In this document: piece after piece, positions 18,831-50,907 of the stretch
How positions within the stretch are numbered: position 1 is the stretch's first letter
Layout: every line of letters begins with the position of its first letter
Assembly: GCA_949152475.1 (NCBI GenBank)
Contig: OX424569.1
Span: forward strand, 34,240,480 to 34,304,479
DNA length: 64,000 nt
Source: Terebella lapidaria
Lineage: Eukaryota > Annelida > Polychaeta > Terebellida > Terebellidae
Direction of reading: 5' to 3'
Program-made: the position numbers and the translations under genes
Notes under the pieces: generated by a model
What the model was told of the DNA's origin: nothing
Seen by the model: the letters and a program-made list of their open reading frames with translations, nothing else
The model's database searches: none

Positions 18831-18871
18831 CAGCAAACTGCAACTCCTCCTGGTGGTCTTCTTGGATAAAT

Positions 18872-18875
<4 letters not shown>

Positions 18876-18922: not shown

Positions 18923-18923
<1 letters not shown>

Positions 18924-19022
18924 CCGTGTTGTTGCTGCTAACTGCCACCGCTTCTTCCGTCTCCGCCAAACTGCCAACCGCCTCCGTCAACCGCTATACT
19001 GCCAACCGCCTCCGTCTACTTT

Positions 19023-19799: not shown

Positions 19800-20039
19800 T
19801 CCGGAAGACCGGGAAACTGAAATTGTCGATCTACTGCACCGCTTTTACTGCACCGCTTCTGCGCCGCCTCTGCACCGCTTCTCCGGACTGGTGGTCTTCC
19901 GGGAAACACTTAGTCGTTTTTCACTGCAAAATCTGTTGCTACCGGAAAATGCTGGACTTGATTCGATTCCGCCAAACTTTGTCTGCGATGTGCACAGCTC
20001 GAGGTCTGCTCTCCAACTGCTGTCAGAGCCCGATTTCAA

Positions 20040-20120
20040 GGCCCTTATATACCCTTTCTGCTCACGTGATTTGAAAAGCTCCATGCTGATTGGCTGCCTC
20101 AGGAGTGACGTCACAATTAT
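20040..20120 (-). promoter_or_regulatory. Putative internal promoter of ORF 3 (element 2)
   Basis: On the minus strand a CRE-like TGACGTCA (near 20106), GCAGCCAATCAGC (CCAAT box, near 20089), CACGTG (20063-20068) and GTATATAAGGG (20043-20051) occur in order, about 245 bp upstream of the ORF 3 ATG. The GATTGGCTGC block is shared exactly with the ORF 4 promoter. The E-box to TATA distance of about 17-22 bp is the same at all three promoters of the element. Confidence 0.55.
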
Positions 20121-20862
20121 GCAAAAACTCAACCGTTAACCGAGAGGTGTCCGTCTCCGGCTCAACCGGCTTCTCCGGGTTTTTCCGGCTCCCTTTCAAC
20201 TGCTTCTCCGAGCGAAGTATCTGCAATTTTGAAGTATCTCTGCCATCAGGAGGGTTGAATAGAGTCTCAGCCAGTTGAATCTGCCTCTCAGACGAACATC
20301 TAGACTGCAAGCTGGGCGTTTCCGCCATCTGTACTGCTTCGTCAACTGCATATCTGCTCACTGGTATTACTGCTTGTCGACACTGGAAACTGCATACATT
20401 CTTGTCCAGAAGGAGGGCCCTTCCTATCTGGAATGATGTTTCACCGCTTCTGTCGATCTGCAGCCGGTTTGCTGTCTCTGCTAAGTGGAAACTCCGGTTG
20501 GATGTCTACAGCCGGAAAACTTTTCCGTCTTAATTCTCTGAATACGGAAGACGTGTAGCTGCTTCTCTGGAGATACTAGACCGCTAACCCAGGTTCTTCT
20601 GGACCCCTGGCCGCTACCCTGGACTGGTTGACTATGCGCTCCAACCAGTCAGAACCTCAAGGATGTCTCTATCCGGTCTCTGCACCGCTTTCCGCTCTGC
20701 TTCCTTTCTCCGCCCTGTTTCCGGAACCAGCACTTGCTCGCTGCTTCGACTTCTTGCGGTCGCTCTCTGCCGGAACTCAACGTTTTACCAGGGTCTCAGC
20801 TATCTCCTTCTCCTGCTCTACAGCTCACTCCGTCTTCTAATATTTCTGCGTCCTCTGCGGCT
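20121..20862 (-). other. Non-coding spacer after pol (element 2)
   Basis: About 740 bp between the pol stop and the ORF 3 promoter. It is pyrimidine-rich on the plus strand, with CTGC/CTCCG bias like the LTR. No open frame is supported. Confidence 0.5.
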
Positions 20863-25080: not shown

Positions 25081-25082
25081 CT

Positions 25083-26372
25083 CTAGTTTTCCGGCTGCTG
25101 CTGCTGCTGTCGTGGCTGCTGCAATTGTTGCTGCTGCTGCTGCTGCTGCGGCTGCTGCTGCTGCTGCTGTTGTCGCGGCGACTGCTGCTGTTGTGGTTGA
25201 CGCCGCTGCTGCTGCTGCTTCGGCTGCCTACAGTCTCGGGCAAAATGCCCTTTCCGGCCACAGTTGAAACATTCTAAATCCGCTCGGGAACTGCGCTGCT
25301 GCTGCTGTCGGCTAACCGCTTCCTTGACCTGAGTCATCAGATCCGCCATCTGCTGCTGAGTCTGCTCGGCTTGCTTCCGCAATTCGTTCACCTGCTGGCT
25401 CCACTCCGGCTCCGTGTTCAGCTGCCTCGTCCGGTGTCGCTCCGCTGGTCTGCTGTTGTCCGTTTTCATGATACTCTCATACTCGGTAGCGAAAGCCAGG
25501 GCCTGCGACAGCGTTTCCGGGTGGCTTTTCAATACCGACAACCGCATATCTCGGTTAGTCAGGCTGTTGCAGAAATGCATCTTCATGAGCACTTCTGTTG
25601 TTGCCGGATCTGCTTTTGGGTAAGCTAGCCGCGTCTTGCTCCGTATGTCTCTGGCCAGCTCGGACAGCTCCTCCTCCGGCTGCAATTTCCGTGTCTGCAA
25701 TTCTGCCTGGAAAACAAATGTTTTCTCCCCCGGACAAAACTGCTGTTTTAATGCCGCCACAACCGTATCAAAGCTGCGTCTCTGCTCCGCGGACAGATCC
25801 AGTAGTATGCTGCGGGCGTTACCCCTCAAACTGACACATAAGTTCAGCGCCTTTTCCTCTGCTGTCCAACGGTAGTACCGAGCGTATTCAAGGAGGTGAG
25901 CCTCATATTCCGGCCACGGATCAGTTCCGTCGTATGTCATTAATCTGGCTACTCCTGCCCTTGGTGCTGGCTGTTGTACTGCTTCTGCCTGCTGCTGCTT
26001 TCCGGTTACTGCCAGGTGCTGCTGAAACACCTCCATTTGGGTCGCCAATAATCTGGTCAGGTTGTCGACTAAGTTCTCTCCGCCTTCCGGGTCCGCATCC
26101 GGTTCCCGATCGCCAGCCTGGTCCGGAAAGTTAACTTCCGCCTCTGCTAACTGCTCTGCAGGCTGTTCTCCTTGAGGAACCCGGAGGGGCTCGTCTGCAA
26201 CTGCTTTCTGCATTTCCGGCTGCAACAGCTTCCGCTCGGCAGGACGAACCGCTTCCTTTTCCGCAACCGGCATCTGCAACGGCTCAGCTCCTACTGCTCC
26301 TACAGGCTGCTCCGTGTCCGACACGGCTGCCTTCAGCTGCTGTTCCGCCAATTTGCCCCGTCTAGTAGTCAT
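25083..26372 (-). CDS. Gag polyprotein (element 2)
   Basis: A 429-codon ORF with its ATG just inside the PBS. The centre carries a Ty3/gypsy-type capsid region (MTYDGTDPWPEYEAHL; FCPGEKTFVFQAEL). One CCHC zinc knuckle (CFNCGRKGHFARDC) follows near residue 375, and the extreme C-terminus is a Gln-rich tract encoded by (CAG/CTG)n. The TAG stop lies at 25083-25085. GGAAAAC just before the stop sits where a minus 1 slip would join the pol frame, though it is not a canonical heptamer. Confidence 0.93.
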   Translation of the reverse strand: MTTRRGKLAEQQLKAAVSDTEQPVGAVGAEPLQMPVAEKEAVRPAERKLLQPEMQKAVADEPLRVPQGEQPAEQLAEAEVNFPDQAGDREPDADPEGGENLVDNLTRLLATQMEVFQQHLAVTGKQQQAEAVQQPAPRAGVARLMTYDGTDPWPEYEAHLLEYARYYRWTAEEKALNLCVSLRGNARSILLDLSAEQRRSFDTVVAALKQQFCPGEKTFVFQAELQTRKLQPEEELSELARDIRSKTRLAYPKADPATTEVLMKMHFCNSLTNRDMRLSVLKSHPETLSQALAFATEYESIMKTDNSRPAERHRTRQLNTEPEWSQQVNELRKQAEQTQQQMADLMTQVKEAVSRQQQQRSSRADLECFNCGRKGHFARDCRQPKQQQQRRQPQQQQSPRQQQQQQQPQQQQQQQQLQQPRQQQQQPEN

Positions 26373-26382
26373 ACTGCAGATG

Positions 26383-26400
26383 ATCCCACCGCTGCCACCA
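26383..26400 (-). other. Primer binding site, tRNA-Leu, element 2
   Basis: Eighteen bases, ATCCCACCGCTGCCACCA on the plus strand, match the 3' end of metazoan tRNA-Leu(AAG), 6 bases from the LTR edge. The identity comes from remembered tRNA sequences. Confidence 0.8.
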
Positions 26401-26406
26401 AAAAGT

Positions 26407-27793
26407 TGTAACGGGTTTGAACCCTTCTGTGACGTCTTGATGAACCGATTTTCTAGGGAGGTGGGTGAGTGGTTGTTTAACCGGAGCTGAAACGGTAAAA
26501 CTCCGGGAAACTGCTACTGTTGTACGGTTGAACTCCGGCTAGAAGTCTCTAAGGTTGGTAGCGTGGTCTGGAATGGACCTCTTAACCGTTGCCCGACTGC
26601 TAATCTGCAACTGCACCTGTAAAGTAAGGATCCGGAGGCGTTTCCGTCTCCGGGTACTGCAACTGCTCCGTCGGGAAACCGCTTTACTGCAACAGCTCCG
26701 TCGTTTTCCGTCTTACTGCAAACTGCGACTGCGCCTGGAATAAAGAATCCGGAAACGTTGCCGTTTCCGAATACTGCAACCGCTCTGCCAGGTTCCGCCG
26801 CACTGCAATCTGCTCCGGTTGGCTCCGCCTCACCGCAACCTGCGACTGCACCTGAAATGGAGTATCTCGGAAGTGTTCCTACTTCCGGTTACCGCAACCG
26901 CTCCGTCAGGTACTGCCTCTGCAACTCCGTCGTCCGGTACCGCCTCTGCAACTGCTTCGTCGTTCCCGTCTCTGCAACTGCTCCGTCCGATACCGCCTCC
27001 GTAGTTGCTCCGTTGATTTCCACCTCCGTCTCCGTCTCCGACTCCTTCCTCGGTGATCTGGGTTCTTAGATCACCCTAAGACGTCGTTACAACTTGGTCT
27101 TAACCGACTGTAGTCTTATCTCCCTTTACTCCGTATAACTGTCTTTTCCGGGAAACTAACTTTATTATAACTTCCAGTTCCCTAACGAACACGGAAAAAC
27201 AACTCGGTTGAAGTTTTCATGTTTATTTTCCAAGTTCACAGTCGGAAGACTTAACTGCTATCATCTGGATGACTCTATCCGGAACAAGGGAGTACTCTGC
27301 TATGGGAGAAGGGGTCTGCACAGGTCGACGTCAGGACACCAACTCCGCCGTCCGCTGTGAAGCGGGGGCTTTTATAGACCTGAGACCCACGTCACGTGAC
27401 CAACCTATTGTGACGTCATAGTCCGCCAAAACACTGATATTTTCCGGATTTCTAAAAACACTCTAGAACCAATCAGTGGCTGACACGTCACCTTTTAAAC
27501 CGAAAACGAGGCTGATCACATGACCTTCCGGAAATAACGTCATTACGTTTTTGTACTCCATTGTTCCGGCTCCGTGTCCGGTTCCGTCTCCGTCTCCGGA
27601 TCCGTCTCCGGCGTTACCAACATCATAAATTACTAAGTTGCGAGACGGAAAACCTTTAAAACATTAACAATACGGAACCGTATGAACCTTTAAACACATA
27701 TACACCCTAATAAACGGTTATTTAACCATAATATCACAAAACACTACAATAATACCTAGGGGAAACCTTTGGGTACGCCCCAAAACCGTTACA
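26407..27793 (-). repeat. 5' LTR of element 2 (1387 bp)
   Basis: Upstream LTR in element orientation, shifted by exactly 11,231 bp from 15176-16562 with no length difference. The TATA box lies near 27371, so transcription would start near 27340. Confidence 0.95.
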
Positions 27794-34473: not shown

Positions 34474-34477
34474 TTAA

Positions 34478-34642
34478 AGCTGGACTAATGGTATTTAAGG
34501 AGACAAGAGAGATTTAAAAAAATATATGTCGGCACATGTACCGCATGTGTCCAGGCGGTACTGCACCCGTGAGATTACCGAACATTTCCGAAGTACCATC
34601 GGCTAGTTTCGGCCGCCCTCGGCGTTTGCTCCAAAGAGCTCC
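34478..34642 (+). repeat. Left terminal inverted repeat of the TTAA transposon
   Basis: Starts AGCTGGACTAATGG after TTAA. It is roughly 70 percent alike to the reverse complement of 50741-50903 by eye, with exact blocks such as CGGCACATGTACCGCATGTG. Confidence 0.75.
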
Positions 34643-35583
34643 GCTCACAAAGTGCAACCGGTCGATATAAAACTCGCCTGTCGTCATGTGGTATAGTCCA
34701 GTTCAACTCACGATACTCTGGGCTGCAACACCACGCTGCACTCCCGGTGAATGCATATCCCCCATACTGCTTGTCAACAGCAGATATTTTATATCGTTAG
34801 AATATGATGCATAAACCATCATATTGCCTAAATCTATCTCCGAAATGGAAATAAATAAACACGATATATTCGACATGTCAATTGTTTACATAAAGTATCA
34901 CACACAGATTCATAACAGAATGTACATCACAATTGAGAAATTGGCCCATGTTCTCCCGTCGGATTACAACTCAACAGGCTTGAGTTGTAATCTAGCGGGA
35001 TTACTATTGTTGGGCAATATTTGTTAGGCTTTAGGCTTCGCTTTCCAGAATAAAGCTCATCAACTATGATTTGCGATTAGACAATTATGTATACATTTCA
35101 TTGCCAATCAGTGTTTAGTGTACAAAATGTATTGTATCCGTAATTGGTTATAGTCATAGTCTACTTTCTAACAAACATCATTGACAGTGAGTATTATTTG
35201 TATAATTATGCTATCGCACTGTATAAAAGATACACAGCCTAGACATAGTACGCACAGTAATAGTATTTGGGGCGGGGGTGCTACTGTTAGCATCCCGAAA
35301 TACAACTGTATGAACGGTAGTGGTCAACTGTGCCAACGAATAAGTGGTATGTATGGACGATTGATACATCATATCACACAAGTTGGTAATGTACATTGAA
35401 ACGGAATGGAGTACATATGTAAAATTATTTCATAGTACAGTAATACCACCAAAATCCACCTTTTTAGCGTTCCCATTTAGGTATATCGATATATGCTTTA
35501 GCGGCAACAGCCCAAGTGTTTCCGTGTTGACATGTACGCACAAATGACACGCTTCATTGAACGGTACTGGGGCCTTATATACT
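34643..35583 (+). other. Non-coding left part of the TTAA transposon
   Basis: Nothing coding is recognised between the left terminal repeat and the 456-bp internal repeat. Confidence 0.5.
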
Positions 35584-36039
35584 GGCATCACGCCACAATA
35601 AGATCTGCATTGGTGGCAATGATAACGAAAAAAAATATTAAAAAAAAACGAGTCCACAAAAAACTTCCATATAACATGATTAGCGAGATCATTACCTTGG
35701 AACAAAATAATATCAGATTCGTGCAAATTCGCCGTCGAAAATTTGTTTAAATGTCCCTCGAGTGACAGTACCGTTCAAATCACATGTCTTCTGGCGCGCA
35801 TTGACACAAAAGCAAGGTGCTTGTTTACAAAATTTCTATATTTTTGTTTTATAGCCAAAGATTACAAATTTGCATTTGCCTGATCAACAGTTGAACACAC
35901 AACACATTTCTGACCAGAAAACACTGATATCCCACACATTTCCCTGACATTTCTCACCTTTCTCCACAAGATTTACTTTCTTTAAGCCGATTTATAGCCC
36001 ACGACGAGTGGTGTTATTCCGCAATAGTGGTGTGATCCC
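35584..36039 (+). repeat. 456-bp internal repeat R1 (MITE-like)
   Basis: Nearly identical, in direct orientation, to 50262-50717. Its own ends form a short imperfect inverted repeat (GGCATCACGCCACAAT against GGGATCACACCACTAT). It could be a MITE present twice, or a subterminal repeat belonging to the transposon. Confidence 0.8.
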
Positions 36040-36878
36040 TAATAGGTATTGAACATACAGAGATGACAAATGTAATATGGCTATTATTTATCACTATTGT
36101 ATTGGCAATTGAATTGTCAGACCGAAAATTTGATATCGAATCGACCCGACGTGCAAAACACATAGTCGTATAGGCACCGTGAGCGAATGAGGGAAGGGAC
36201 GGCATGCTGCAGCACCACATATGGCATACTGATACTCAACATTCATCCTGGTCATGTATCCAGATGCTTTGAGATTTCATGATTTTTATTTTACCTGAGC
36301 ACATTGTGGTATCAACACTTCATGATAACTATATGTTTTAGTTGATTGTTTAATTGCAGTAATTATCATTAATATTTTACAACATGCCCTATTTTACCCT
36401 AAAATGCCTACTTCTTACCGAATTTGAACTGAAATAACTTCCGACGCAAGGTCTCAGATTTCACGAAAAAGTTTTTTTTATATAATTTTACCATCGAAAA
36501 GTATCACTGATAGTGAACATGCAGAATATTGTGTGAAAATAAAAAAATATAAGCATTTTAGTTTTTTTCCTGACAGTGAAAATTTGGAGCTTGTCCGTCA
36601 TAGTGCACCCGTACATAACATGAGAACTTCAAACTTGCAATATTTAAATTATTACAATAGCAGCTTTCTAGGTTCTGGATCAATGTGAAATGCCAATATA
36701 CATCGGACACAGAAAACATGTACATGTCCCAGATCTGTCACTTTACGATAAACATCATTAATCAGACAAACCTAACACATACAGTACTATGGGACAAGTG
36801 AAAAACAGTCATTCCAACTAAATCTCCACATCAGGATACTTGTGTTTGATACCAAAGTGAAATTATTATTTAAGCAAT
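36040..36878 (+). other. Upstream region of the transposase gene
   Basis: AT-rich, no open frame supported. It presumably contains the transposase promoter, but no clear TATA box was chosen. Confidence 0.4.
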
Positions 36879-38574
36879 ATGGCTAAATCAGCTATTGTAA
36901 AGGCGAGGAACAAAGATGGCAGGTTCAGGAAAGACATGACCACCAGAGCTCATCACCAACTTGTTAACAAGGGTCATTTCAAGAAAGGTGTTCGGGCCAA
37001 GCGACATAGGATGGCAGCTCACAGTCTGATCAAAAGCTGTGAAAACAGGAGAATTGAGCGACTCACCAGTAGCGTATTCCAGCGTGTAGCGAAGATGTCA
37101 CCTGGTGGAGTACTATACGGGCCTGATGCCGAGAACCGCCCAGGACCGGCAATGCTGTTGAGACCGCGTCAGAGTACGGAGCCAGATGTCTCCACCGCGT
37201 ACCTGACGGAAGAGGGAGAGAATGATGAAATGAGGCTGGTCAACAACAACAAGGCAGCTGAAATGTGGAACATGGCATTCACTGAACATACACACACAGG
37301 AGAATGTGACAGGCCATATCTGAAAGTTGACCGAGAGATAAAGCGGGGGCTCGGCTGGAAGCAGTCATTGGCCTGTGCCAACTGCTCATACACCTCGGGT
37401 ATGTTCAAGTTGTATACAGAGGTCAAATCCAACAAGCGAGGGCCTAAACGTGCCTCATGCAATGTTGGATTACAAGTTGGTCTCCAAGACACTCCGATCA
37501 GCAATACGAAAGCCCGCATGTTGATTGCATCAACCAATACTCCGCCATCAGCACTGAGTGCTATGCAACGCATGTCGAACAGCGTAGGGAAGGCCATCCG
37601 AACCTTGAATATGAGGGACATGAGGGCAAGACGACGTGAAGCTGGTGACATCAACGTGCTGCGAGGGCTGAACCGAGATGCTGCGGTAAACATATCTTTT
37701 GATGTTCGATATGACAGCACGACAATCGGAAGCCGCCACAAGATGGGTCAGAATGCTTCGCAGGCAGTTGGTATCGCCGTCGAAAATCAGACCACTCAGA
37801 AGCAAATCATTGGGGTCCATATGGACAACAAGCTATGCTGGGTTGGTTCATGGTTTCGCAATAGGGGCTTCAATGTTCAGTGTCCAGGTCATCCTGACTG
37901 CACAGCCAATGTGAATCCTGATGATCCGTTATCAGAGAGGCACATTGGTGAAAGCATTGTTGAAGACCTGGCTGACTCCGGCTTGCTTGTGCAGTACGTG
38001 ACCACTGACGGAGACGGCCGCGGTGCTGAGGGTGTGAAAGCTGCCATGGAGAACAAGTTTCCCAGCTGCCACGTGGAAAGACAGGCAGACACCACTCACC
38101 TGGGGCAGTCAGTGTTCCGTCAAACCATTCAAGCCAAATTCAGTGATGCCATGTTCCCGGGGTCCAGTGCGGAAAGACGGAAAGAACAGCAAAAGATCCT
38201 GGGCCTGGACCTGAAGACGCGATGTCATGCCATCATGAATCGTATGCATCAGGATTATGCAGGTGACATGCATGCTATCGCCAAGAAGATGCCTGCAGTT
38301 ATGAGTACAACACTCGACTGCTATAGTGGAGACTGTAGTGGATGCAGGTACACTGGCATAGTTTGCAATGGAGGCAAGAAAAACTGTTGGTGGCGCCGGT
38401 CACCGTACCTGTGGAACTGCGGTTTGAGGAGCCTAGCAGTCAGTGACGATGACCGGGCAATTCTGAGGGCGCTACTGAATCTCAGACTAGGGGTTGAGGC
38501 ACTGAGAATAACCAAACACAACACCAACACAAACAAAAATGAGGCAGTCAACAGGGGAATAAGTGTCAGCCTAC
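36879..38574 (+). CDS. Mutator-like transposase, N-terminal part (interrupted)
   Basis: ATG at 36879. The frame encodes 565 codons before LTR element 3 interrupts it. A basic N-terminus (MAKSAIVKARNKDGRFRKD) precedes the catalytic domain. FDVRYDSTTIGS near residue 270 fits the first Asp motif, and VTTDGDGRGAEGV near residue 374 fits the conserved DGD motif. HLGQSVFRQ and RCHAIMNR helices, a Cys-rich insertion (YSGDCSGCRYTGIVC) and NTNKNEAVNR near residue 550 (the Glu/Asn motif) follow. This order matches the Mutator-like transposase domain common in mollusc and arthropod proteins. The insertion falls just after the NEAVNR motif; reading past it enters the LTR and stops at 38657. The gene is inactive as it stands. 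Confidence 0.8.
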
Positions 38575-39079
38575 TGTTGTGCCATGCGGTTTTACGATAT
38601 GGCCGAACGGTGGGCCGCAAAGCACACCAAGTTCAAGGGAAAAATACACAAAGGTAACTCACGCTTGTCAGTCGCCGTGCAGTTTCCCTCACACACACAC
38701 AGCGTTGTCAGGTTAGCAGTAGCAGGCAGCTAGTAGACTCGAGTCTGTCCGCACGTGGAACTCCAGTCGTCTCACGTCCGTAGCCGAAGTCTGCCCGTGG
38801 ATTTCTCTGTAGTATCTGCCCGTGATGAATAGACGCCCCGAACATTTATTGCAAGATGACCACTCCTATCTTGACCGGCGTGTTCACCGACGTGGAGACA
38901 AGTCACACAGGCCGGTTCACTGAGGCGTGAACAAGTCACTCGGGGATCTTCGTTATAGCCGAACCCGGCCGAATCAAGGTTCGTCAGTTTCCGGACTACT
39001 CCGTGATGACTGGTTGTACTTCTTGACTACACACCGACATCATAAATAATAGACATTTTTACGATCAAAATCTACAACA
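38575..39079 (-). repeat. 3' LTR of element 3 (505 bp)
   Basis: Appears identical to 48489-48993. In element orientation it contains GCAATAAATG, a candidate polyadenylation signal. The interrupted transposase frame runs about 80 bp into this LTR before a stop. Confidence 0.95.
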
Positions 39080-39093
39080 CACTTCCCCTTTTT
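39080..39093 (-). other. Polypurine tract of element 3
   Basis: On the minus strand AAAAAGGGGAAGTG directly abuts the 3' LTR. Confidence 0.8.
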
Positions 39094-39475: not shown

Positions 39476-40975
39476 CTAATAATCTAACCGATAAAACTGG
39501 CTAGCTGCCCGGCGAGTCCGACAAACTACCAACGACAACGGGAGGTGCTTGATCCGGGCTACCTCAGTGGCAAATGGTTTCAGGCTCCAGGGACCAGTGG
39601 CCAGCAGTGGGGCATCACTTTCAAGTATGAGGCGATCAAGCGCACACTGCTGAACCACAGCTGCTGTGTCGGGGTGACTGAAGACCTTGGAACCGACCCC
39701 GATAAACAATTTGAAGGTCCGGGACCACTTATGGAAAAGCACGAGGGAACCACAGAAACAGTGAATATAAACAGGATATCCCTGGGGCAAAACATCTGTA
39801 GCGATACGGTACAGGTCGTCATAAGCGTCCCAAGAATCTTCCTTGTCTCGGCAGTGAAATACAACCGGGAGCACTTTGACCTTAGCAAGATCTAGAGCCT
39901 CTCTAAGATATCTTTCCTGTGCCGCCTTCTGCTCATCCGTGCGGTGCCTGGAGTAATCGATCCCGACCTCACCTATGGCTACACACTTAGGGTGATCAGC
40001 CAGCTGATGGAGCTCTCGAATAAGATCGGAACACGGACTAGATGCCACATGAGGGTGAACCCCAACAGAAACACTTATCTCCGGTGATTTATTCACAACT
40101 GACATTATCCCGAGACTGTGGGGAAAATTCAAACTCGCCACAAACGCAACCACGTCGAGGAAATTGGAATTCTGCCGACATACACTCTTAGCGTGAGCCA
40201 GATCGCGATATCGGCTCGAAATCATCATCCGGTCGAGGTGACAGTGTCCGTCTATAGCAAGCAACGGGGGATCCGGGAAAATTTTAACTTGACCCTGCCT
40301 CGAGACAGAAACGGCTAGACCGGGGTCTGGCAACAGCTGTACAAGTTCAAATAAGACATGCCAGTTCGTGAGCGATGATAATTTGTTGGGAGGGCTGATC
40401 TGATACAGCGGAATAACATCCTGGCCGGTTCGCATGTCAAAAAGTGCTGCCATATCCAAATCAACAGACGAGAACTGATAATTTTTTGGCGTAACGGGGA
40501 AATGAACCTGTGAATATTCCAACAACCCCTCATGACCTCCCTGAATACCCAGCTGACCTTCAAGAAATTCAAAGAATCCAAACAAAAGCTTTAACCATAA
40601 CTCGACATGAAGATCGCTAAAGTAGCCGTCGACAGGGTTATCGTCATGGCGATTGGATCCTGCTCCGTGTTTCATCCGGTCGAAACTCATGCTTCCTTCG
40701 CTGGTTTCACAAATAAAACAGGACCTATCGGGGAGCACATACCAGGGCAAATGCTTCTGTAGCGCATGTCTTTTAATAGACGTTCCCGCTGACTGGGTGC
40801 ACAAAGGACAAGTTTTCTTCTTGTTTTTCGTTTTCTTGGAAGCCCCCTCCCCCTTCCTCTTCGAAGACTCCACCTCAGCCTCCTCCTCTTCCACGACCTG
40901 CAAAGGTTTCACCTCTTCCCCCTCTACCTCCTCTTCGTAATCAGGGACAAAATTTGCTTCGTCTTGGGAATCCAT
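39476..40975 (-). CDS. TatD-family nuclease with N-terminal zinc finger (element 3 accessory ORF)
   Basis: 499 codons from the ATG at 40975 (MDSQDEANF). Residues 1-55 are acidic then basic. A C2H2-like finger follows (C56, C59, H70, H75), and CFIC at 86-89 may start a second. Residues 240-499 form a TatD-type metal-dependent hydrolase (TIM barrel). The ligands are all present: H244 and H246 in DGHCHLD, E336 in AIGEVGID, H374 in FHCRD, H405 in YIHCFCG and D454 in LESDAP. SVGVHPH and EQKAAQERYLREALDLA also fit the family. TatD proteins are DNases or exonucleases acting in DNA turnover and repair. It occupies the post-pol position where retroviruses carry env. The role in the element is unknown; processing of cDNA ends is a guess. 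Confidence 0.9.
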   Translation of the reverse strand: MDSQDEANFVPDYEEEVEGEEVKPLQVVEEEEAEVESSKRKGEGASKKTKNKKKTCPLCTQSAGTSIKRHALQKHLPWYVLPDRSCFICETSEGSMSFDRMKHGAGSNRHDDNPVDGYFSDLHVELWLKLLFGFFEFLEGQLGIQGGHEGLLEYSQVHFPVTPKNYQFSSVDLDMAALFDMRTGQDVIPLYQISPPNKLSSLTNWHVLFELVQLLPDPGLAVSVSRQGQVKIFPDPPLLAIDGHCHLDRMMISSRYRDLAHAKSVCRQNSNFLDVVAFVASLNFPHSLGIMSVVNKSPEISVSVGVHPHVASSPCSDLIRELHQLADHPKCVAIGEVGIDYSRHRTDEQKAAQERYLREALDLAKVKVLPVVFHCRDKEDSWDAYDDLYRIATDVLPQGYPVYIHCFCGSLVLFHKWSRTFKLFIGVGSKVFSHPDTAAVVQQCALDRLILESDAPLLATGPWSLKPFATEVARIKHLPLSLVVCRTRRAASQFYRLDY

Positions 40976-41094
40976 ACTAAGATCTGTAATAAGCAAATAT
41001 TAACACCCCAAAGAAACCATGAAACAAACAAATCTTTTCCTAACTTAACGCCACCACCGAAGAGAGAGAAATATCATATATACAAGGAACATGT

Positions 41095-41215: not shown

Positions 41216-44200
41216 CTAGGGCACATAGTCGCTCAAATAGGCAGGTTTTTTAACATTCCTTCCTACCCTGGTCTGCACACTAAATTCAGGAATACTGTCA
41301 TCAGTACTATCATAATCACCTTCATCCTCTTGATCGAGATTTCCAAGTCCATATGGGATAGTCTCATTTAAATCCCCGGAATTTGCTAATCCCTCGGAAT
41401 TTGCTAATCCCTCGGAATCCGACATAACCAAAGCCGTGATGTTGTCCACAACTGCTTCGGATTCCGGAACATCAATAGCAACATCTTGTTCTAAAAGACT
41501 ATGCCTTTTCCTACGTATCCACAAAGGAATATCCCGATCAGCACAAAGTTTAAGGTTGTCGTGGTGAAGAATGAAATTTCGGCGCCTGTCCTCAATTCGA
41601 TATAATACAGGCGAGACGACCTTGGTCACTAGGAAGGGACCTACATAAATTGGCTTCAATTTAGAGCTTTCCCCAGTTTTATGACTTAGGTCCAGCCTAT
41701 AGACTAAATCACCCTTTTCATATTTCTTCTGATTTACTTGGCCCTCATGATACTTTTTCTGTCTTTCCTGGTTCCCTAGCAAATGCTTCCTCGCCACGTC
41801 ATGTGCTTTAGTCAGATTTTGTAACAGACCCTTCAGATAAACACCAACATCACCACCTTCTAGATTCACATTTGAAATACCCAACATCTCAGCTGGAAGT
41901 GACACTTCCCTACCCAGCATCAAAAAGTTTGGGGTATAACCAGTGTTTCGGTTAACCATACTTCTCATAGCCATACCCAACAGTGGCAAATATTTGTCCC
42001 AATCCTGCTGCTTGCCATCTAGGTAACACCTAATGGAGGACAAAATAACCCTGTTGTAAACCTCGACTTGGCCATTAGAGCATGGACGATAAGGGGTGGT
42101 TCTGGTTTTAGTAATTTCAAGTATGCGACAAAGGTTCTGGAACAAACTTCCTTCGAAATTTCTGCCTTGATCTGAATGAATGAACACAGGAATTCCCAGA
42201 CGAGAAAAGAAATTATCTACCAAAGTTTGAGCTACGACTTCCGCAGTCTGGTCCTGCACGGCATAACATTCAATCCACTTGGTAAATTGATCTACCACTA
42301 CTAATATGTACTTATTCCCACGATCACTAACCACAAACGGACCTAGCATGTCTATATGCACTCTTTCCATAGGAACCCCTGCACAAAAGGAACCTAAACT
42401 GGCCCGCGGTTTGCGAGTTGCTTTTTTGTTCTGATTACACTTGGAACAAGTTTTAACATATAGATCACAGTCAACTCTCATTTTATACCAGTAGAAATTT
42501 TCACGAAGTCGTTTCAAGGTCTTATTTTGTCCAAAATGACCTGCCGTCTTTGCATCATGCACAAGGAATAAGATCGGATCTCTTAAAGATAAGGGAACCA
42601 CTAACTTCAGCCTAGTGGAATTATCACTACCCTCTACCCAATGGTAATAAAGTACACCGTCTCGTAATTCAAGTTGGTCCTTGTGTAGCCACAGAAATTT
42701 AGTCGCAACACCATGAGGGAATAAATCCTCCTTTGTCGGTATTTGACTCGACGCTAACCAGGTCATAATTGGACGAATACTGGGATCTGACTTTTGAGCA
42801 TCACTGATTTCTTCTGGCGAGTACCCATGTGTGAGCACCTCATCTTCGGACAGTATACTACCGTCTGAAAAGTCAGAAACTCCTACATTACGCACTGCCA
42901 AAGGAACAACGTCATCAACCTCGATCTCAAAACGTTTCCATTGAGTATGCACTCTAGTACAGAAACTACAACCGCCACATGGAAGATCACTAAGACTTTC
43001 CCCTGCCCGATAGCAGTCACAATAGTCTATCGGATCGTGCCTCCTAGTGGGAGCATCCGCGTTACAATGTCTCTTTCCAGAACGATGTATGATAAACATA
43101 TCAAACTGGCTAAGCTCCTCAAGCCAGCGTGCGAGCTGTCCCTCTGGTTGTCGAAAACGAAGTAACCAAACCAAACTATGATGATCGGTCCTAACACAGA
43201 ATCTACGGCCTAACAAATAATGTCTATACTGACGAGTGAAAACAATTATAGCTAACAATTCTTTCCTCGTGGTACAGTACTTTCTTTGAGCCGATGACAA
43301 AACTTTACTTCCGAAGGACACTGGCTTTTCCACACCATCCTGTACTTGACTCAACACAGCACCTACAGCAATATTTGAAGCATCAGTATCCAGAATGAAT
43401 AAATCTGAAGAATTAGGGAAAGTTAAGGTAGGACATTCAGCTATCTTCATTTTGAGTAAATCAAAAGCTTGCTGGTGTTCGAGATCCCATCTAAACCTTG
43501 CTTTTGGACCTGTTAATCCATATAGACAGGCTGAAATTTCTGCAAAACCTTCCAGAAATTCACGATTATAGTTCATGAACCCTAAATACGACTCTACTTC
43601 CTTTCTACAGGTAGGTTCTGACCAATTCAAAACTGCATCAACCTTTTCATGCGTCATAGTTATTCCATCCTTACTCAGATGCTTCCCCAAGAAATTTACC
43701 TCATGTTGGAACAACACACACTTTTTGGGTTTCAGACGAAGGTTGTATTCACGGAATCGTAAAAGAACGGTTCTCAAATTCTCAAGAGCTTTCGAAAAGG
43801 TGTCACCCAGTACAATAACATCATCCAAATATGCTAGAGCTTCCTGCCACTGAAGCCCGTGCAGCACAAAATTCATGGCTCTTTGAAAAGTTGCTGGTGC
43901 GTTACATAACCCAAATCCCATGCGAACATGTTCAAACAACCCATATCTAGTGATGAATGCGGTTTTGTGCCTATCCTTGGGATCAATACTAATCTGCCAA
44001 TATCCAGCAGCTAAATCCAATGTTGAGAAAAATTCAACACCTCCAAGTGAATCTAAGCACTGCTCAATCAAAGGCAATGGGTAGGTATCCTTTATAGTCT
44101 TGGTGTTTAGACCGCGGTAATCTATACAATACCTAACTGACCCATCTTTCTTTCTCACCAAGACAGGCGCTGACGCCCACTCAGATGCTGAGGGTTGTAT

Positions 44201-45454
44201 TACACCTATCTCTAACATTTTATCCAAGTGCGCTTTCTCCTCTTTTTCAAAACCTATGGGAGTCCTACGCATACGTTCCTTAACAGGTTTTTCTGGTCCT
44301 GTGTCTATTTTGTGTTGTATGACCTCAAAATGACCCAAGTCAAGATCACTTTTTGCAAAAACATCAGCAAACTCAATCAGGAAACTTTTCAATTCACTTC
44401 TCTGCTGTTCATTCAAATTAATTGAACTCCGGTCAAACAGATTAACCATGTGCGCCGGAAGTTCCTGCACTACAATCTCCCTAACAACTATTGATTCAAT
44501 TTGGTGATCGTCAACACTGAAGTCCAAGTCTTGAGAACCGGGGGGTGATACTACCTCCTGATTAACCAGACTTTTTCTCAAGCATGACTCTCGCCCCTCC
44601 AAAGCATACCCTTTACCTAAACTAGTGTCCACACAAGACCCAGGCATTTGAGAGGCGGATTGCGATACTGCACTCTGCTTTTCACACGCCCAGCTCCTGC
44701 CTGACTGTATACTAGGAGCGTCCAGCATTTCACTGACCGGCATGGCATTACCAACAAGACAGCCTCGCTTCAGTGTCCGATAACCTAAGCTACAATTTAT
44801 GACTCGGATATGTACTTCAGAACCCTGAAGGAGAACTCTAGGGATCAGAATCCCCGGTTGACTAAGAACAGGTTCCACTATGTGTGATCCATTACCTAGC
44901 AAACTATCTATTTTGGCCTTTACCACTTTCATGCTATTAGGTGGTATGACAGTTCGCTTGGACAATAGAACTGGCTTTAAAATAATTTGACCAGCCATGC
45001 TGTTCTTCTGGATTGCTGGAACAACTTCTCCCTGTACTGCCAAGGTATTATTCCCCATGTTTATTGAGCAGTTATGAGCCTTCAGGAAATCAGAACCTAG
45101 CAGCAAATCTTCAGAAATGTTTGCCGTTATCATAGGCCAATTAAATTTCTGATTGCCCACTTCTAATTTCACACTACTAAGCTTATATCCCTTGGTCTTA
45201 CCACCAAAAGCTCCTGTCATGCCTATTTCTTCTTTACTCTTTGTATCGAGAGACTTCGTTTTTAGGAATTTTTCATTGATTATGGTTGCCTCAGCTGCAG
45301 TGTCTATCACAGCATTAATTTTCTGGCCTTCAACTTTCACTGGAATGACTAAGGTCCAACCCCAGTGTTCATTTATTTCACCACTGCTAACGTTATGGAC
45401 ATTGCGGCCCTCAACACCCTTCGGAGCTGAACTTTGGGCCGAAAACCCAGCTCC
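41216..45454 (-). CDS. Pol polyprotein (element 3)
   Basis: About 1400 codons in minus 1 phase to gag and open across the gag stop; no ATG is needed if it is made by frameshifting. Protease region VIDTAAEATIINE has Ala in place of the usual Gly after Asp-Thr. Reverse transcriptase: YCIDYRGLN and active site YLDDVIVLG. RNase H: DTDASNIAVGAVLSQ. Integrase: zinc domain HDAKTAGHFG...CSKCNQ and D-D-E residues in IDMLGP, HSDQGRNFE and GQVEVYNR. A C-terminal GPF-like module YVGPFLVTKVV follows, then an acidic tail. All catalytic motifs look intact. Confidence 0.95.
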   Translation of the reverse strand, partial: GAGFSAQSSAPKGVEGRNVHNVSSGEINEHWGWTLVIPVKVEGQKINAVIDTAAEATIINEKFLKTKSLDTKSKEEIGMTGAFGGKTKGYKLSSVKLEVGNQKFNWPMITANISEDLLLGSDFLKAHNCSINMGNNTLAVQGEVVPAIQKNSMAGQIILKPVLLSKRTVIPPNSMKVVKAKIDSLLGNGSHIVEPVLSQPGILIPRVLLQGSEVHIRVINCSLGYRTLKRGCLVGNAMPVSEMLDAPSIQSGRSWACEKQSAVSQSASQMPGSCVDTSLGKGYALEGRESCLRKSLVNQEVVSPPGSQDLDFSVDDHQIESIVVREIVVQELPAHMVNLFDRSSINLNEQQRSELKSFLIEFADVFAKSDLDLGHFEVIQHKIDTGPEKPVKERMRRTPIGFEKEEKAHLDKMLEIGVIQPSASEWASAPVLVRKKDGSVRYCIDYRGLNTKTIKDTYPLPLIEQCLDSLGGVEFFSTLDLAAGYWQISIDPKDRHKTAFITRYGLFEHVRMGFGLCNAPATFQRAMNFVLHGLQWQEALAYLDDVIVLGDTFSKALENLRTVLLRFREYNLRLKPKKCVLFQHEVNFLGKHLSKDGITMTHEKVDAVLNWSEPTCRKEVESYLGFMNYNREFLEGFAEISACLYGLTGPKARFRWDLEHQQAFDLLKMKIAECPTLTFPNSSDLFILDTDASNIAVGAVLSQVQDGVEKPVSFGSKVLSSAQRKYCTTRKELLAIIVFTRQYRHYLLGRRFCVRTDHHSLVWLLRFRQPEGQLARWLEELSQFDMFIIHRSGKRHCNADAPTRRHDPIDYCDCYRAGESLSDLPCGGCSFCTRVHTQWKRFEIEVDDVVPLAVRNVGVSDFSDGSILSEDEVLTHGYSPEEISDAQKSDPSIRPIMTWLASSQIPTKEDLFPHGVATKFLWLHKDQLELRDGVLYYHWVEGSDNSTRLKLVVPLSLRDPILFLVHDAKTAGHFGQNKTLKRLRENFYWYKMRVDCDLYVKTCSKCNQNKKATRKPRASLGSFCAGVPMERVHIDMLGPFVVSDRGNKYILVVVDQFTKWIECYAVQDQTAEVVAQTLVDNFFSRLGIPVFIHSDQGRNFEGSLFQNLCRILEITKTRTTPYRPCSNGQVEVYNRVILSSIRCYLDGKQQDWDKYLPLLGMAMRSMVNRNTGYTPNFLMLGREVSLPAEMLGISNVNLEGGDVGVYLKGLLQNLTKAHDVARKHLLGNQERQKKYHEGQVNQKKYEKGDLVYRLDLSHKTGESSKLKPIYVGPFLVTKVVSPVLYRIEDRRRNFILHHDNLKLCADRDIPLWIRRKRHSLLEQDVAIDVPESEAVVDNITALVMSDSEGLANSEGLANSGDLNETIPYGLGNLDQEDEGDYDSTDDSIPEFSVQTRVGRNVKKPAYLSDYVP

Positions 45455-47643
45455 TAAGCTTTTAACGGACTATGAGGGGTGTCTGACTTCCTAGCTGGCG
45501 ATGGACTACGAGATGTAGGACAATTTCTCGATATGTGACCTAGCTCATGGCACTTAAAACACTCAAAGTCTTGATGTGTTTTCCCAGACTGCTGTTTTTC
45601 CTCCATGACCCCCTTTTCACTACGTTTCGGGCACTCGCGGCTAAAATGGCCCTTATTCCCACAAGTGTAACATGTAACATTTGCTCGGGATCCTGGCGAT
45701 GGAGATCTAGGACGGCTATCAATTTTTTCTGCTAGTGCCTTGGTGAGTTTCATCAAATCTTCTAGCACTCGGCCACTAACTTGAACAGAATCCTTCGTTG
45801 TACCTACATTCCTCACTGCAGGACCTTCAACCTCCTCAAATGACACCTGTCTACTTGACAAACTAGTCTTATAGCCCAAAGAACGCATGTTAAACATGGA
45901 ACGCTTTGCATGTTGTAAAGCTTTCTCAACTGTTCGAGGTTCTTTCTCGAAAACTTTTTCAGCTATATGTTTATCAGCTAAACCCCGAATGAACACATCG
46001 ACTGCTACCCCTTGTAGTGTACCACGAGCTGCACCAGGAAACCCTTCCTGACCTAGCTGGAGAACTCTATCCGCAAAATCCTCTAAAGGCTCATCTACTG
46101 TCTGTTTAGCACAGTACATTTCCTTCCTAACCGTTGCTGGTGGATCTCTCGCACCATAACGCTTTTTCAGATCAGCAATAAGGTCACGATAATTATGACG
46201 GACTCTCGTGGGTAGACTTTCAACAAAGTCGATAGCTTTATCCCTCAAACATGTTTTTAGCTTTTCCAATTTGGCATTATCTGTCCACCTGTAGTTATGG
46301 CTGAACTGTTTAAACTGGAAGTAGAACGACTTCCAACTAGCTTTGTCACCACTGAAAGTTGGCATTTTCGGCAAAACCGAATCACCCTTACGATGGCGTG
46401 TACCATGCTCCCTGTCACTAACCCACTCCTCATCTGACGACGTATTTGGCCCACTATCATAACTTGACTGAGAACTTTCCTCACGACGGCGAGCCCTCGC
46501 CCTCCTTGGAACATCATCCCTCTGCACTCTAACAGGACTCCTAGCCCGCTCCGCCGGCCTACTTCGCCCCCGTGGTTGACCTACTCTCCGTTCCCTTCTT
46601 TCTCCACCAGACTCTCGATACGTTTCCTCAACCCGATCTGATTCATGAACCCCACCCAGAGGTGTTTGAACAGGGCGTACCCCCTCCCGCGGGTTCCAAG
46701 TCTGTTGTACCACAACTCGAGGGTACAAGTTGCCATCTGCCGGTTGTACTGCTGGATTGTTCATAGAAACTTGGTGGGCATCTAACTGAGACCCGAAACT
46801 TTTAAGTCTCTCTGGAGCAACAACTGGGATAGGATTTGGTCTTTCCCATTCCCCACAATACTGTCCAGAACGGTACGTTCCTCCTGCCGGATAAGATGAA
46901 TCATCCACCCTCCCCCTTTCTAATGAGCGCTGCTCAACTCCTACTACATTTGAGAGAGTATGCCTGGTGATAGGATTACTAGATTCAGAGACATCTGAGT
47001 TTTTACCTCCATAAACCCCACCATCAGGAAATGCTTTACTTACAACTTCATTTTGCCATTTCATGAACTCCTGATTCCTAGTGCGGGCTCTATCCTCCCA
47101 TACCTGTGGGTGCCTCAACTTTAAAGTTTGAGCTTGTTTAGAATGAGTCTGCACTACATCCTCCTGTTCATTTTTACATGCAGTTAAGGGTGTAAACTCT
47201 TGTGTCAGATATTCACTACTTCTACGATCTTGCTGAGGCTTTATAAGGTTTAATTCATTCGTACGCTCTTGTTCAGATTTTACGAAGTTTAGTTCGCTCC
47301 TCATTTCTTTTTGATAAGCCTTCATTTCCTTTTGATCAGTAGTCACGTTAAGAAGCTTTTCCTCAAACATTTCCATCATATTCAGAATTCTGTCTAATTT
47401 CCTATCCGTGTCACTAACAGGATACATACATGTAGTACTTTTTTCTGAAGACAGTGGTTTTATGACACCATTGTCAATCAGATCTTGAAAGAAACGCTCA
47501 CTCAACCCAGTAGCCTCAGCTAAGTTATTCAGGGTTACATCATCTTGTTGCAAATCCACTATAGCCCGTGCTCGAGCTTCACCTATCTGTGGAATTTCCT
47601 TTAGTTCAATAACTGAAGCCGTCTCTAAATCGATAGGATTCAT
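45454..47643 (-). CDS. Gag polyprotein with helix-hairpin-helix (element 3)
   Basis: 729 codons with an ATG start. The first 50 residues contain ELKEIPQIGEARARAIVDLQ, a ComEA-like helix-hairpin-helix DNA-binding motif, which is unusual in Gag. A coiled-coil-like segment follows (residues about 75-125), then an Arg-rich linker. A Ty3/gypsy capsid region starts near PTFSGDKASWKSFYFQFKQF. Two CCHC zinc knuckles (CYTCGNKGHFSREC and CFKCHELGHISRNC) sit at the C-terminus. It would package the element RNA in the particle. Confidence 0.93.
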   Translation of the reverse strand: MNPIDLETASVIELKEIPQIGEARARAIVDLQQDDVTLNNLAEATGLSERFFQDLIDNGVIKPLSSEKSTTCMYPVSDTDRKLDRILNMMEMFEEKLLNVTTDQKEMKAYQKEMRSELNFVKSEQERTNELNLIKPQQDRRSSEYLTQEFTPLTACKNEQEDVVQTHSKQAQTLKLRHPQVWEDRARTRNQEFMKWQNEVVSKAFPDGGVYGGKNSDVSESSNPITRHTLSNVVGVEQRSLERGRVDDSSYPAGGTYRSGQYCGEWERPNPIPVVAPERLKSFGSQLDAHQVSMNNPAVQPADGNLYPRVVVQQTWNPREGVRPVQTPLGGVHESDRVEETYRESGGERRERRVGQPRGRSRPAERARSPVRVQRDDVPRRARARRREESSQSSYDSGPNTSSDEEWVSDREHGTRHRKGDSVLPKMPTFSGDKASWKSFYFQFKQFSHNYRWTDNAKLEKLKTCLRDKAIDFVESLPTRVRHNYRDLIADLKKRYGARDPPATVRKEMYCAKQTVDEPLEDFADRVLQLGQEGFPGAARGTLQGVAVDVFIRGLADKHIAEKVFEKEPRTVEKALQHAKRSMFNMRSLGYKTSLSSRQVSFEEVEGPAVRNVGTTKDSVQVSGRVLEDLMKLTKALAEKIDSRPRSPSPGSRANVTCYTCGNKGHFSRECPKRSEKGVMEEKQQSGKTHQDFECFKCHELGHISRNCPTSRSPSPARKSDTPHSPLKA

Positions 47644-48472: not shown

Positions 48473-48486
48473 CACTTCTGACACCA
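48473..48486 (-). other. Primer binding site, tRNA-Leu, element 3
   Basis: Fourteen bases, CACTTCTGACACCA on the plus strand, match the 3' end of a metazoan tRNA-Leu (CAA type), 2 bases from the LTR. The identity comes from remembered tRNA sequences. Confidence 0.7.
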
Positions 48487-48488
48487 TT

Positions 48489-48993
48489 TGTTGTGCCATG
48501 CGGTTTTACGATATGGCCGAACGGTGGGCCGCAAAGCACACCAAGTTCAAGGGAAAAATACACAAAGGTAACTCACGCTTGTCAGTCGCCGTGCAGTTTC
48601 CCTCACACACACACAGCGTTGTCAGGTTAGCAGTAGCAGGCAGCTAGTAGACTCGAGTCTGTCCGCACGTGGAACTCCAGTCGTCTCACGTCCGTAGCCG
48701 AAGTCTGCCCGTGGATTTCTCTGTAGTATCTGCCCGTGATGAATAGACGCCCCGAACATTTATTGCAAGATGACCACTCCTATCTTGACCGGCGTGTTCA
48801 CCGACGTGGAGACAAGTCACACAGGCCGGTTCACTGAGGCGTGAACAAGTCACTCGGGGATCTTCGTTATAGCCGAACCCGGCCGAATCAAGGTTCGTCA
48901 GTTTCCGGACTACTCCGTGATGACTGGTTGTACTTCTTGACTACACACCGACATCATAAATAATAGACATTTTTACGATCAAAATCTACAACA
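48489..48993 (-). repeat. 5' LTR of element 3 (505 bp)
   Basis: Appears identical to 38575-39079; the CTAC duplication follows at 48994-48997. Confidence 0.95.
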
Positions 48994-48997
48994 CTAC

Positions 48998-49434
48998 CAA
49001 AGAATGTCACCTACAGTCGGAATGCAGTGGCCCGTGCTAACTCAGCCGTCCACCGATTGAATCACGGCGCAGGGAACTCTCTAATTAAGAAACTGGAGGC
49101 AGTGAACAGCCCGATAACAAAGGGACGACATGTGGCCAGGGCTGTCAAACACATACAACATCGCTCCAAGTACCACATAACATATTTACAGCAGAGAAAA
49201 GTGCGACAAATGAAAATGTTCAATCGTGTCAGACAGATGAGGTCATATCTCAGGGCTAAATATGCGAAGAGGGTCAGACCCGATTATCAGAAAGGACAAC
49301 TTGATCCCCAAATACATGACCCACTAGAAGACATAAAAGATGTTGGTACTGGGGGTTACTGCCTCCGAAAGCGGGGAAAACCAAAACCAGCTCATAACGA
49401 ACACCCCTACAGTAAGCCTTTACACCACTTGTAA
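48998..49434 (+). CDS. Mutator-like transposase, C-terminal part
   Basis: It continues the frame of 36879-38574 exactly once the LTR element and one CTAC copy are disregarded; the total is 710 codons with no stop. It begins PKNVTYSRNAVARANSAV and continues through HRLNHG, which matches the end of Mutator-like transposase domains. A basic tail and a TAA stop at 49432-49434 follow. A GTAAGC donor-like site at 49411 and an acceptor-like ACAG near 49447 would allow a very short intron and about 58 more residues; I consider this unlikely. Confidence 0.75.
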
Positions 49435-49757
49435 CTTTCCCATACAGGCACCATCTGTCAGGGATGAACCTGAGTTCACTCCGGACGACAGATCGCCGAC
49501 GACGATCGACAGGCTTACCGTAGAGGTGTCCGGGAATGTGGAGTGCTGCCCTACCCCTGCCATGGATACAAATACTGGGACTGGCGCTGACCAACGTACC
49601 GCCGGAAGAGTCCCACTATGACCCACAAACCCTGCGTTGGGTGTCAGGTCCGGCCCTCACCTGACACGCCAGGACCGCCGCCTTGAGGGGAGCCTCGTTG
49701 CAGTCAATGGTGACTATTTACTATTATATGCATGTTTTTTGCATGAATACACACCTT
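49435..49757. other. Spacer between convergent transposon genes
   Basis: A GC-rich stretch with an open plus-strand frame to 49621 but no start of its own or domain. It separates the convergent transposase and endonuclease stops. Confidence 0.4.
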
Positions 49758-50132
49758 TTACATCTTTAAATTTAATAAGCAGTCCTGAAATGGCCAATGG
49801 TGCTGACACTGATTGAGATGAACACAAATATTTCTGTTCTGATTAATGACATCATATTCTAACGATAAGTGAGCTGGATTCACGCATGCTTTGTTGTGGC
49901 ACCTATGGCTTATATCTTGACCGTGAATGTCGACAAAAGTCAAATTATGAAATAATAAATACGATAACCTATGTACAGTCACATTCTGCCACTTGTCAGT
50001 GATTTTGACATTAATTTGACCATATCCATCCTTATTTAAATATTTTTTCCACATATGACATTGGCCATTATGACCGATTTCCCAGTTATTTTGTAGTTTT
50101 TCTCTATATTTTTCAATAAAATTGGCATCCAT
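49758..50132 (-). CDS. His-Cys-box homing-endonuclease-like protein
   Basis: 124 codons from the ATG at 50132. The motif series fits the I-PpoI / zinc-binding-loop His-Me finger family: W28, DGYGQI, VHRLSY, then SHRCHN..C..NPAHL..E, a later Asn, and R-N-x-C. By comparison with I-PpoI, H76 would be the catalytic His and N97 the metal-binding Asn. Zinc site 1 would be C25, C78, C83 and H88. Site 2 would be C103, C109, H111 and C118. These enzymes cut double-stranded DNA. An acceptor-like TTTTTTCAG upstream suggests a 5' UTR intron. It lies convergent to the transposase inside the same TTAA transposon, close to the right end. Its function there is unknown. Confidence 0.75.
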   Translation of the reverse strand: MDANFIEKYREKLQNNWEIGHNGQCHMWKKYLNKDGYGQINVKITDKWQNVTVHRLSYLLFHNLTFVDIHGQDISHRCHNKACVNPAHLSLEYDVINQNRNICVHLNQCQHHWPFQDCLLNLKM

Positions 50133-50261
50133 GATGAATATACTGTATAAAGCATTGTATTGGGCAGACAACAGTACCAAATATGGGATGTTAACCTGAA
50201 AAAAATGCCGTAGAAACAGAAAATAAACATTACCCTATGTCATCATAATGCACCGGTGACA

Positions 50262-50717
50262 GGCATCACGCCACAATAAGATCTGCATTGGTGGCAATGA
50301 TAACGAAAAAAAATATTTAAAAAAAACGAGTCCACAAAAAACCTCCATATAACATGATTAGCGAGATCATTACCTTGGAACAAAATAATATCAGATTCGT
50401 GCAAATTCGCCGTCGAAAATTTGTTTAAATGTCCCTCGAGTGACAGTACCGTTCAAATCACATGTTTTCTGGCGCGCATTGACACAAAAGCAAGGTGCTT
50501 GTTTACAAAATTTCTATATTTTTGTTTTATAGCCAAAGATTACAAATTTGCATTTGCCTGATCAACAGTTGAACACACAACACATTTCTGACCAGAAAAC
50601 ACTGATATCCCACACATTTCCCTGACATTTCTCACCTTTCTCCACAAGATTTACTTTCTTTAAGCCGATTTATAGCCCACGACGAGTGGTGTTATTCCGC
50701 AATAGTGGTGTGATCCC
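50262..50717 (+). repeat. 456-bp internal repeat R2 (MITE-like)
   Basis: Direct copy of R1 (35584-36039) with only a few differences, ending about 24 bp inside the right terminal inverted repeat. TACT lies outside both R1 left and R2 right. Confidence 0.8.
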
Positions 50718-50740
50718 TACTGGCAGAAACCCCTCAAGTG

Positions 50741-50903
50741 CTGGAGCGTTTGGAGCAAACGCCGAGAACAACCGAAGGCAGCCGACTGCAGTCGGGCATT
50801 TTCGGAAATGTAACGGGCACAGTACCGTATGAACACATGCGGTACATGTGCCGAAATATATTTTTTAATCTATTTTTTCTCCTTTTAAGCCATTAGTCCA
50901 GCT
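50741..50903 (-). repeat. Right terminal inverted repeat of the TTAA transposon
   Basis: Reverse complement of the left repeat, ending CCATTAGTCCAGCT before TTAA at 50904-50907. Confidence 0.75.
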
Positions 50904-50907
50904 TTAA

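Follow-up and report, generated by a model that had tools for sequence, protein, structure and literature searches.

Enzymatic third genes are already known in LTR retrotransposons. In bdelloid rotifers the elements Juno and Vesta carry an ORF3 for a DEDDy exonuclease or a GDSL esterase, according to the parts of PMC5408684 drawn on here, and orchid Ty3/gypsy elements are described in parts of PMC9289625 with an m6A RNA demethylase domain, a recent acquisition. The element presented here shares with the bdelloid elements, as far as those parts go, the order of gag, pol and an enzyme ORF (nucleases included) in the place of env, with the invariant residues of the enzyme largely intact. With the orchid elements it shares the gain of an extra functional domain, although these belong to a plant and carry another enzyme. 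Unlike the bdelloid ORF3s, its ORF3 protein has neither a DEDDy nor a GDSL domain, and Pfam gives TatD_DNase. No description of TatD in an LTR retrotransposon was found among the open-access papers searched, Repbase lying outside this scope, and the mentions of TatD in the portions of PMC5408686, PMC5840709 and PMC7545183 that were available concern other matters. Whereas enzymatic ORF3s as such are known, TatD as an ORF3, widespread and constrained within its Ty3/gypsy group, appears to be new.

The window is a stretch of 64,000 nucleotides of Terebella lapidaria DNA, and its TatD-bearing Ty3/gypsy element of 10,419 bp lies intact on the minus strand, with the features collected in Table 1. 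The LTRs have TG..CA termini and are bordered by a target-site duplication of 4 bp. The order protease-RT-RNase H-integrase in pol is the one that Ty3/gypsy (Metaviridae) membership demands, and the paired LTRs with a short duplication, the CCHC gag and the PBS-like and PPT-like sequences are also those of this group. The PBS-like sequence presumably resembles a leucine tRNA. Gag, pol and ORF3 are all open and the LTR copies are 100% identical, which bears out the initial annotation of an intact ORF within apparently identical LTRs, and by this identity the insertion is recent. Its borders are exact, because the insertion split a Mutator-like transposase ORF, and joining the flanks at one CTAC restores an open frame of 710 aa.

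Some further observations concern the surroundings of the element and its gag. Within the flanking stretches 34474-38574 and 48998-50907, the Mutator-like ORF lies between 461-bp direct repeats that are 99% identical (35581-36041 and 50259-50719) and is also enclosed by 79% inverted repeats (34474-34642 and 50743-50907), a layout that would perhaps fit a complete Mutator-like element whose direct repeats are unusual. The N-terminus of gag (47485-47643, minus strand) has a helix-hairpin-helix-like stretch, which is unusual for gag and matches PF12836 below the cut-off (E = 2.4e-4), and seven loci belonging to families B and C have counterparts of gag residues 1-64 to 1-75 that are 44-51% identical. 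Several large, mutually similar ORFs at 58297-63999 on the plus strand, with four von Willebrand A domains in 58297-60984, are probably exons of a host gene.

Table 1. Features of the TatD-bearing Ty3/gypsy element in window coordinates.
Feature	Position	Strand	Basis
Target-site duplication CTAC (left)	38571..38574	.	read from sequence
3′ LTR, 505 bp	38575..39079	-	100% identity with 5′ LTR
Polypurine tract AAAAAGGGGAAGTG, adjoins 3′ LTR	39080..39093	-	read by eye
ORF3, finger-TatD protein, 499 aa counted from ATG, plus stop	39476..40975	-	ORF list, Pfam
TatD_DNase domain, aa 241-495, six of six metal ligands	39491..40255	-	Pfam, alignment
Second CCHH motif, aa 86-110	40646..40720	-	motif reading
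First CCHH motif, aa 56-75	40751..40810	-	motif reading
Splice-acceptor-like YAGs, TTACAG 8 nt and TTAG 1 nt before the TatD ATG	40977..40986	-	putative
pol: protease, RT, RNase H, integrase	41216..45340	-	open frame, domain search
gag, two CCHC knuckles	45454..47643	-	open frame, domain search
PBS-like TGGTGTCAGAAGTG, adjoins 5′ LTR	48473..48486	-	read by eye
5′ LTR, 505 bp	48489..48993	-	repeat comparison
Target-site duplication CTAC (right)	48994..48997	.	empty-site comparison

The match of the ORF3 protein to Pfam TatD_DNase scored 137.1 bits against a cut-off of 27 and covered model positions 1-252 of 253, confirming the full TatD domain that had been annotated in the ORF between pol and the 3′ LTR. 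The metal ligands HxH, E, H, H and D were likewise present at each of the residues claimed for them (H244, H246, E336, H374, H405 and D454). TatD_DNase was the sole Pfam match of the protein and the N-terminal half had none at E up to 5. A chance ORF is ruled out by the domain match, and an env protein by the lack of any Pfam env family among the matches up to E = 5. A profile built from the ORF3 protein and eight relatives matched solved TatD structures over the whole domain, the best being 1yix (E = 1.5e-37), with the structures of human TATDN3 and TATDN1 ranking lower. The NCBIfam TatD models all stayed below their curated cut-offs, with 112.6 bits against 206 for TIGR00010, a model built for prokaryotic proteins. 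Upstream of the TatD domain a single C2H2-like finger had initially been noted; a finger region of the CCHH type is indeed there, but it holds two motifs rather than one (C56/C59/H70/H75 and C86/C89/H103/H110), placed around HLPWY and preceded by an acidic start and then a basic patch. By its place as third gene, past pol and before the 3′ LTR, and by the acceptor-like site near its ATG, ORF3 resembles retroviral env, but it encodes an enzyme and not a glycoprotein.

A search of the 762-Mb genome (438 contigs) with the TatD-ORF3 protein gave at least 88 matches, a lower bound that rests on 86 scored candidates out of 308. Sixty-eight of the 88 covered at least 400 residues, 57 of these being stop-free and 11 having stops. 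Besides the window copy, five full-length matches were 99-100% identical and two more were identical at 100% (shortened) and 97% (residues 1-478); among the further matches one copy was split by a frameshift, two places were degenerate and the rest were 26-40% identical. Between families TatD is only about 30% identical, yet the plan of acidic start, two CCHH fingers and catalytic domain is common to them. The Pfam TatD_DNase model gave at least 152 matches in the genome (150 of 216 candidates scored). At two places, C1:31959692-31960629 and C11:892369-893418, TatD is laid out in three exon-like pieces, and these were therefore taken as host TatD genes. At another locus (L038, G000:C3:12352534-12356734) an open TatD frame of 517 aa has no pol in the 2.3 kb upstream and is neighboured by a second TatD piece and gag-knuckle-like pieces; from this arrangement it may be a gag-TatD element that is non-autonomous, or else a domesticated copy.

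One copy from each of four families, including the window's own, was examined on the 5′ side (A, L012; B, L027; C, L030; D, L022), and TatD was inside LTRs in all four. The end stretches of 505, 287, 300 and 269 nt, respectively, were 100% identical within each pair, and the 4-bp duplications were read as GTAA, ATAG, CTAT and GTAA. The LTR terminus is CA for families A and D but TA for B and C, a purine tract was found in every family, and the PBS-like sequence of D differs. The copy of family C is embedded in repeated DNA, with a second flank match of 323 nt. The coexistence of many related families in one genome could be taken to mean that the nuclease destroys the nucleic acids of competing elements or limits the copies of its own family. 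Such exclusion is nevertheless very unlikely, as no sign of discrimination between self and other was seen, near-identical copies of one family coexist, and a self-limiting element should be out-competed, an argument made for the rotifer ORF3s in parts of PMC5408684.

The linkage of TatD to pol was found repeatedly and in both directions, which refutes the possibility, raised in the initial annotation, that only the window copy is linked. Pol lay upstream on the same strand at 27 of 30 TatD loci besides the window, in some of them partial or in pieces: at 18 of 20 first-ranked loci inspected over 7.5 kb upstream (split rows merged), and at nine of 10 loci chosen for other families and inspected over 2.5 kb. 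The three loci without upstream pol are two degenerate ones, L020 with a pol piece downstream and L021 with none, and L038 with its open TatD frame. Inversely, when the window pol was used for the search irrespective of TatD, TatD followed downstream on the same strand at all 34 pol loci scored (out of 13,197 candidates), with 221-2654 nt separating it from the pol match. A lone captured passenger is ruled out by this two-way linkage. Among seven finger-bearing relatives from the database only P0001 has a pol partner, P0100, among the best 120 of 3942 pol matches; the pairing is inferred from their source (lgn, with a longest contig of 8019 bases for both) and is a lead for linkage outside this genome. 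No relative turned up in viral_contigs when this set was scanned with the TatD ORF, with pol or with a pol alignment, and its TatD loci L001-L003, which align over just the catalytic half and with 26-28% identity, were not used. The notion that TatD stays intact where pol is broken (L026, L028, L029 and L031) was dropped, because TatD is shorter and the copies were chosen by TatD similarity.

Two other Ty3 elements in the window are distant from the TatD element (integrase 34-35% identical), and no TatD match was found in the six ORFs of theirs that were scanned. One of them, at 15175-27793, has 1388-bp end repeats that are 100% identical and, past pol, two minus-strand ORFs (16838-18697 and 19023-19799) with weak zinc-finger matches below the cut-off and no TatD. 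The other, at 7631-12312, has end repeats of 98.7% identity and, past its integrase, a minus-strand ORF (8646-10034) with weak zinc-finger matches also below the cut-off. Since finger ORFs without TatD occur in these elements, finger ORF3s may be common in these Ty3 lineages and older than the fusion with TatD.

Conservation over a wider range was read from 23 aligned rows, 17 from this genome (three of family A and two of family B) and six from the database. Both CCHH motifs were complete in 21 of them, the exceptions being N_L040 with a short frame and P0005 with a gap at the last histidine. This completeness, together with the post-pol ORFs with weak C2H2 matches and no TatD in the two other window elements, favours a regulator led by its fingers, in which the protein chiefly binds element DNA or RNA for targeting, autoregulation or packaging and TatD is weakly active or a binding fold. 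Against this, all 23 rows retain the six metal ligands at an overall identity of about 30%, and a binding fold has no need of them, so that this explanation appears unlikely. A basic patch, counted as at least six K/R in the 25 residues before the finger, was present in 17 of the 22 finger-bearing rows and unclear in five, and suggests nuclear entry or nucleic-acid binding.

Within families the TatD ORF is under purifying selection. Pooled pN/pS was 0.48 in family A, the window's own (7 copies, p = 0.008), 0.084 in B (4 copies, p = 0.0007), 0.175 in C (3 copies, p = 0.018), 0.248 in F (5 copies, p = 5e-6) and 0.48 in J/K (2 copies, p = 0.016), values that are rough, with few counts and simple site counting without transition bias or tree, and that come from copies chosen by protein similarity, which favours intact frames. 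The ratio near 1 that had been considered as a possible outcome was thus not seen in any of the five families, though the window's own family gets no lower than 0.48. For pol the corresponding values were 0.287 in B (3 copies, p = 2e-7) and 0.60 in A (4 copies, p = 0.22). These counts leave out L025 (late start) for the TatD of B and L019 (frameshift) for A, as well as the degenerate L020 and L021 and the window copy. Between families dS was saturated in nearly all pairs.

TatD has also diverged together with pol. The identity matrices of integrase and TatD correlated with r = 0.90 over 13 rows (12 from this genome and P0100 with P0001), with 0.875 when the near-copy K was removed and 0.879 when the P0100 pair was removed as well, and in each case none of 5000 permutations reached r. 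L_L038, N_L040 and P_L041 were left out because they have no long integrase piece. The groupings {B, C, D, H, I}, {E, J, K} and {G, M} are common to both proteins. The broken copies, with stops among the long matches, might be those of a passenger, a host gene acquired by chance and without function for the element, but such a passenger is strongly disfavoured and hardly credible in view of the linkage, the co-divergence, the conserved ligands and the purifying selection. With TatD behind every scored pol, its active site kept over deep divergence and its frame under purifying selection, some step of the element cycle seems to depend on a nuclease, which the element apparently does not leave to the host. 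The rotifer ORF3s are described, in parts of PMC5408684, as specific to particular families and absent from the earliest branches, and their intragenomic evolution as not departing significantly from neutrality; in contrast, TatD was found behind 34 of 34 scored pols, has diverged in step with integrase and is under purifying selection.

In a tree of TatD domains (37 rows) the retro-type proteins formed one group (95/80), some branches being long and P0009, a protein with another N-terminus, falling inside the group. The host gene at C1:31.96 Mb branched next outside this group (93/83), followed by the second host gene and, further out, 11 bacterial rows. The C1 row is partial, joined from exon pieces, and the single TATDN2-like row in the tree, a provisional name given for its motifs. 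With this host gene as the nearest outgroup, the retro-type TatD was likely captured from an animal, and an animal gene of the TATDN2 lineage would be the simplest source. ORF3 has the TatD domain in common with animal TATDN2 but is borne by an element, open in one frame and equipped with two N-terminal CCHH fingers. In the tree of integrases (39 rows) all 12 rows from this genome fell into one supported group (99/97), together with three database pols that may or may not carry TatD, and P0100 joined a different group, close to a pol with a Macro domain. With this mixture of TatD-bearing rows and database pols, and P0100 elsewhere, a single capture is only one possibility: TatD may be older than this group, it may have been gained or lost more than once, or the pairing of P0100 may be wrong. 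Related pol proteins (P0112 and P0136, and P0082, P0097 and P0125) were seen to carry other extra domains, Macro (PF01661) or zf-CW (PF07496).

A YAG stands just upstream of the TatD ATG in several families, the letters before ATG being ATTTCAG in B, TTTTTCAG in D, TTCTCTAG in H and CATTGTAG in I. Of 11 families, 8 have one within 2 nt of the TatD ATG and all 11 have one within 11 nt, whereas among 1330 other ATGs in these loci the corresponding counts were 126 (p = 8e-7) and 407 (p = 2e-6); J, K, N and P stood outside this comparison, and related families are only partly independent. The pyrimidine tracts before these YAGs are mostly weak. A YAG so placed would look like a 3′ splice site for a subgenomic mRNA.

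In the reading preferred here, which we would give an even chance of being right, ORF3 is a genuine third gene of an old Ty3/gypsy group, a captured nuclease of the TATDN2 lineage that acts as an active nuclear helper and clears element intermediates. A TatD nuclease of this animal lineage would have been captured, most simply once, and set past pol with an acidic stretch, a basic patch and two CCHH fingers in front of it; it would then have been inherited with pol as the group split into many families. The protein would most likely be translated, as retroviral env is, from a subgenomic mRNA whose splice acceptor lies at the ATG or close to it, and is predicted to have been retained as an active metal-dependent nuclease. 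Fingers and basic patch would bring the enzyme to the nucleic acids of the element, in the nucleus or the pre-integration complex, where it could trim the RNA of RNA:DNA hybrids, 3′ ends, flaps or abasic sites arising from reverse transcription and integration; RNA:DNA hybrids or element DNA ends would be the favoured substrates. TatD relatives are described in parts of PMC12709183 as 3′-5′ exonucleases on ssDNA and RNA and as AP endonucleases, and human TATDN2 as cutting RNA in R-loops. The apparent dependence of the element on a nuclease makes the limits on such elements in animals, namely hybrid removal, end repair and sensing, testable.

The R-loop activity of TATDN2 reported in those parts of PMC12709183 would also suit a role in counter-defence, in which TatD removes nucleic acids that betray the element, either surplus cytosolic cDNA in the manner of TREX1 or RNA:DNA hybrids and R-loops that feed silencing at element loci. 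TatD has its own gene, probably expressed apart from gag-pol, and it changes faster than integrase, with identities between families, near-copies aside, of about 0.26-0.50 against 0.44-0.75. QatD, a nuclease of the TatD family, is part of an anti-phage system, and its model matches ORF3 far below the cut-off. The basic patch in 17 of 22 rows, on the other hand, points to the nucleus over the cytosol, and counter-defence is regarded as possible but rather improbable. The nuclear helper that clears intermediates is retained as the preferred reading. More tentatively, and with low confidence, the protein could be a host-derived, finger-guided nuclease of the TATDN2 type, an env-like spliced gene of a large and old animal Ty3/gypsy group, that rids its own loci of RNA:DNA hybrids or surplus cDNA and so escapes silencing or sensing. 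If this were true, it would be a retroelement-encoded R-loop resolver or TREX1 analogue, and part of the TATDN2 annotations in mollusc genomes would be the ORF3 gene.

For annotation in general, database genes named TATDN2 may be ORF3s of retrotransposons, for example the Saccostrea relative P0003, which bears this name at NCBI. In the giant squid genome TATDN2 and a pogo element are labelled among the non-Hox genes of the Hox figure (PMC6962438, known here in part), and an oyster GWAS, as far as the consulted part of PMC10778899 shows, has two TatD genes close together; the squid TATDN2 or the oyster pair may be such an element.
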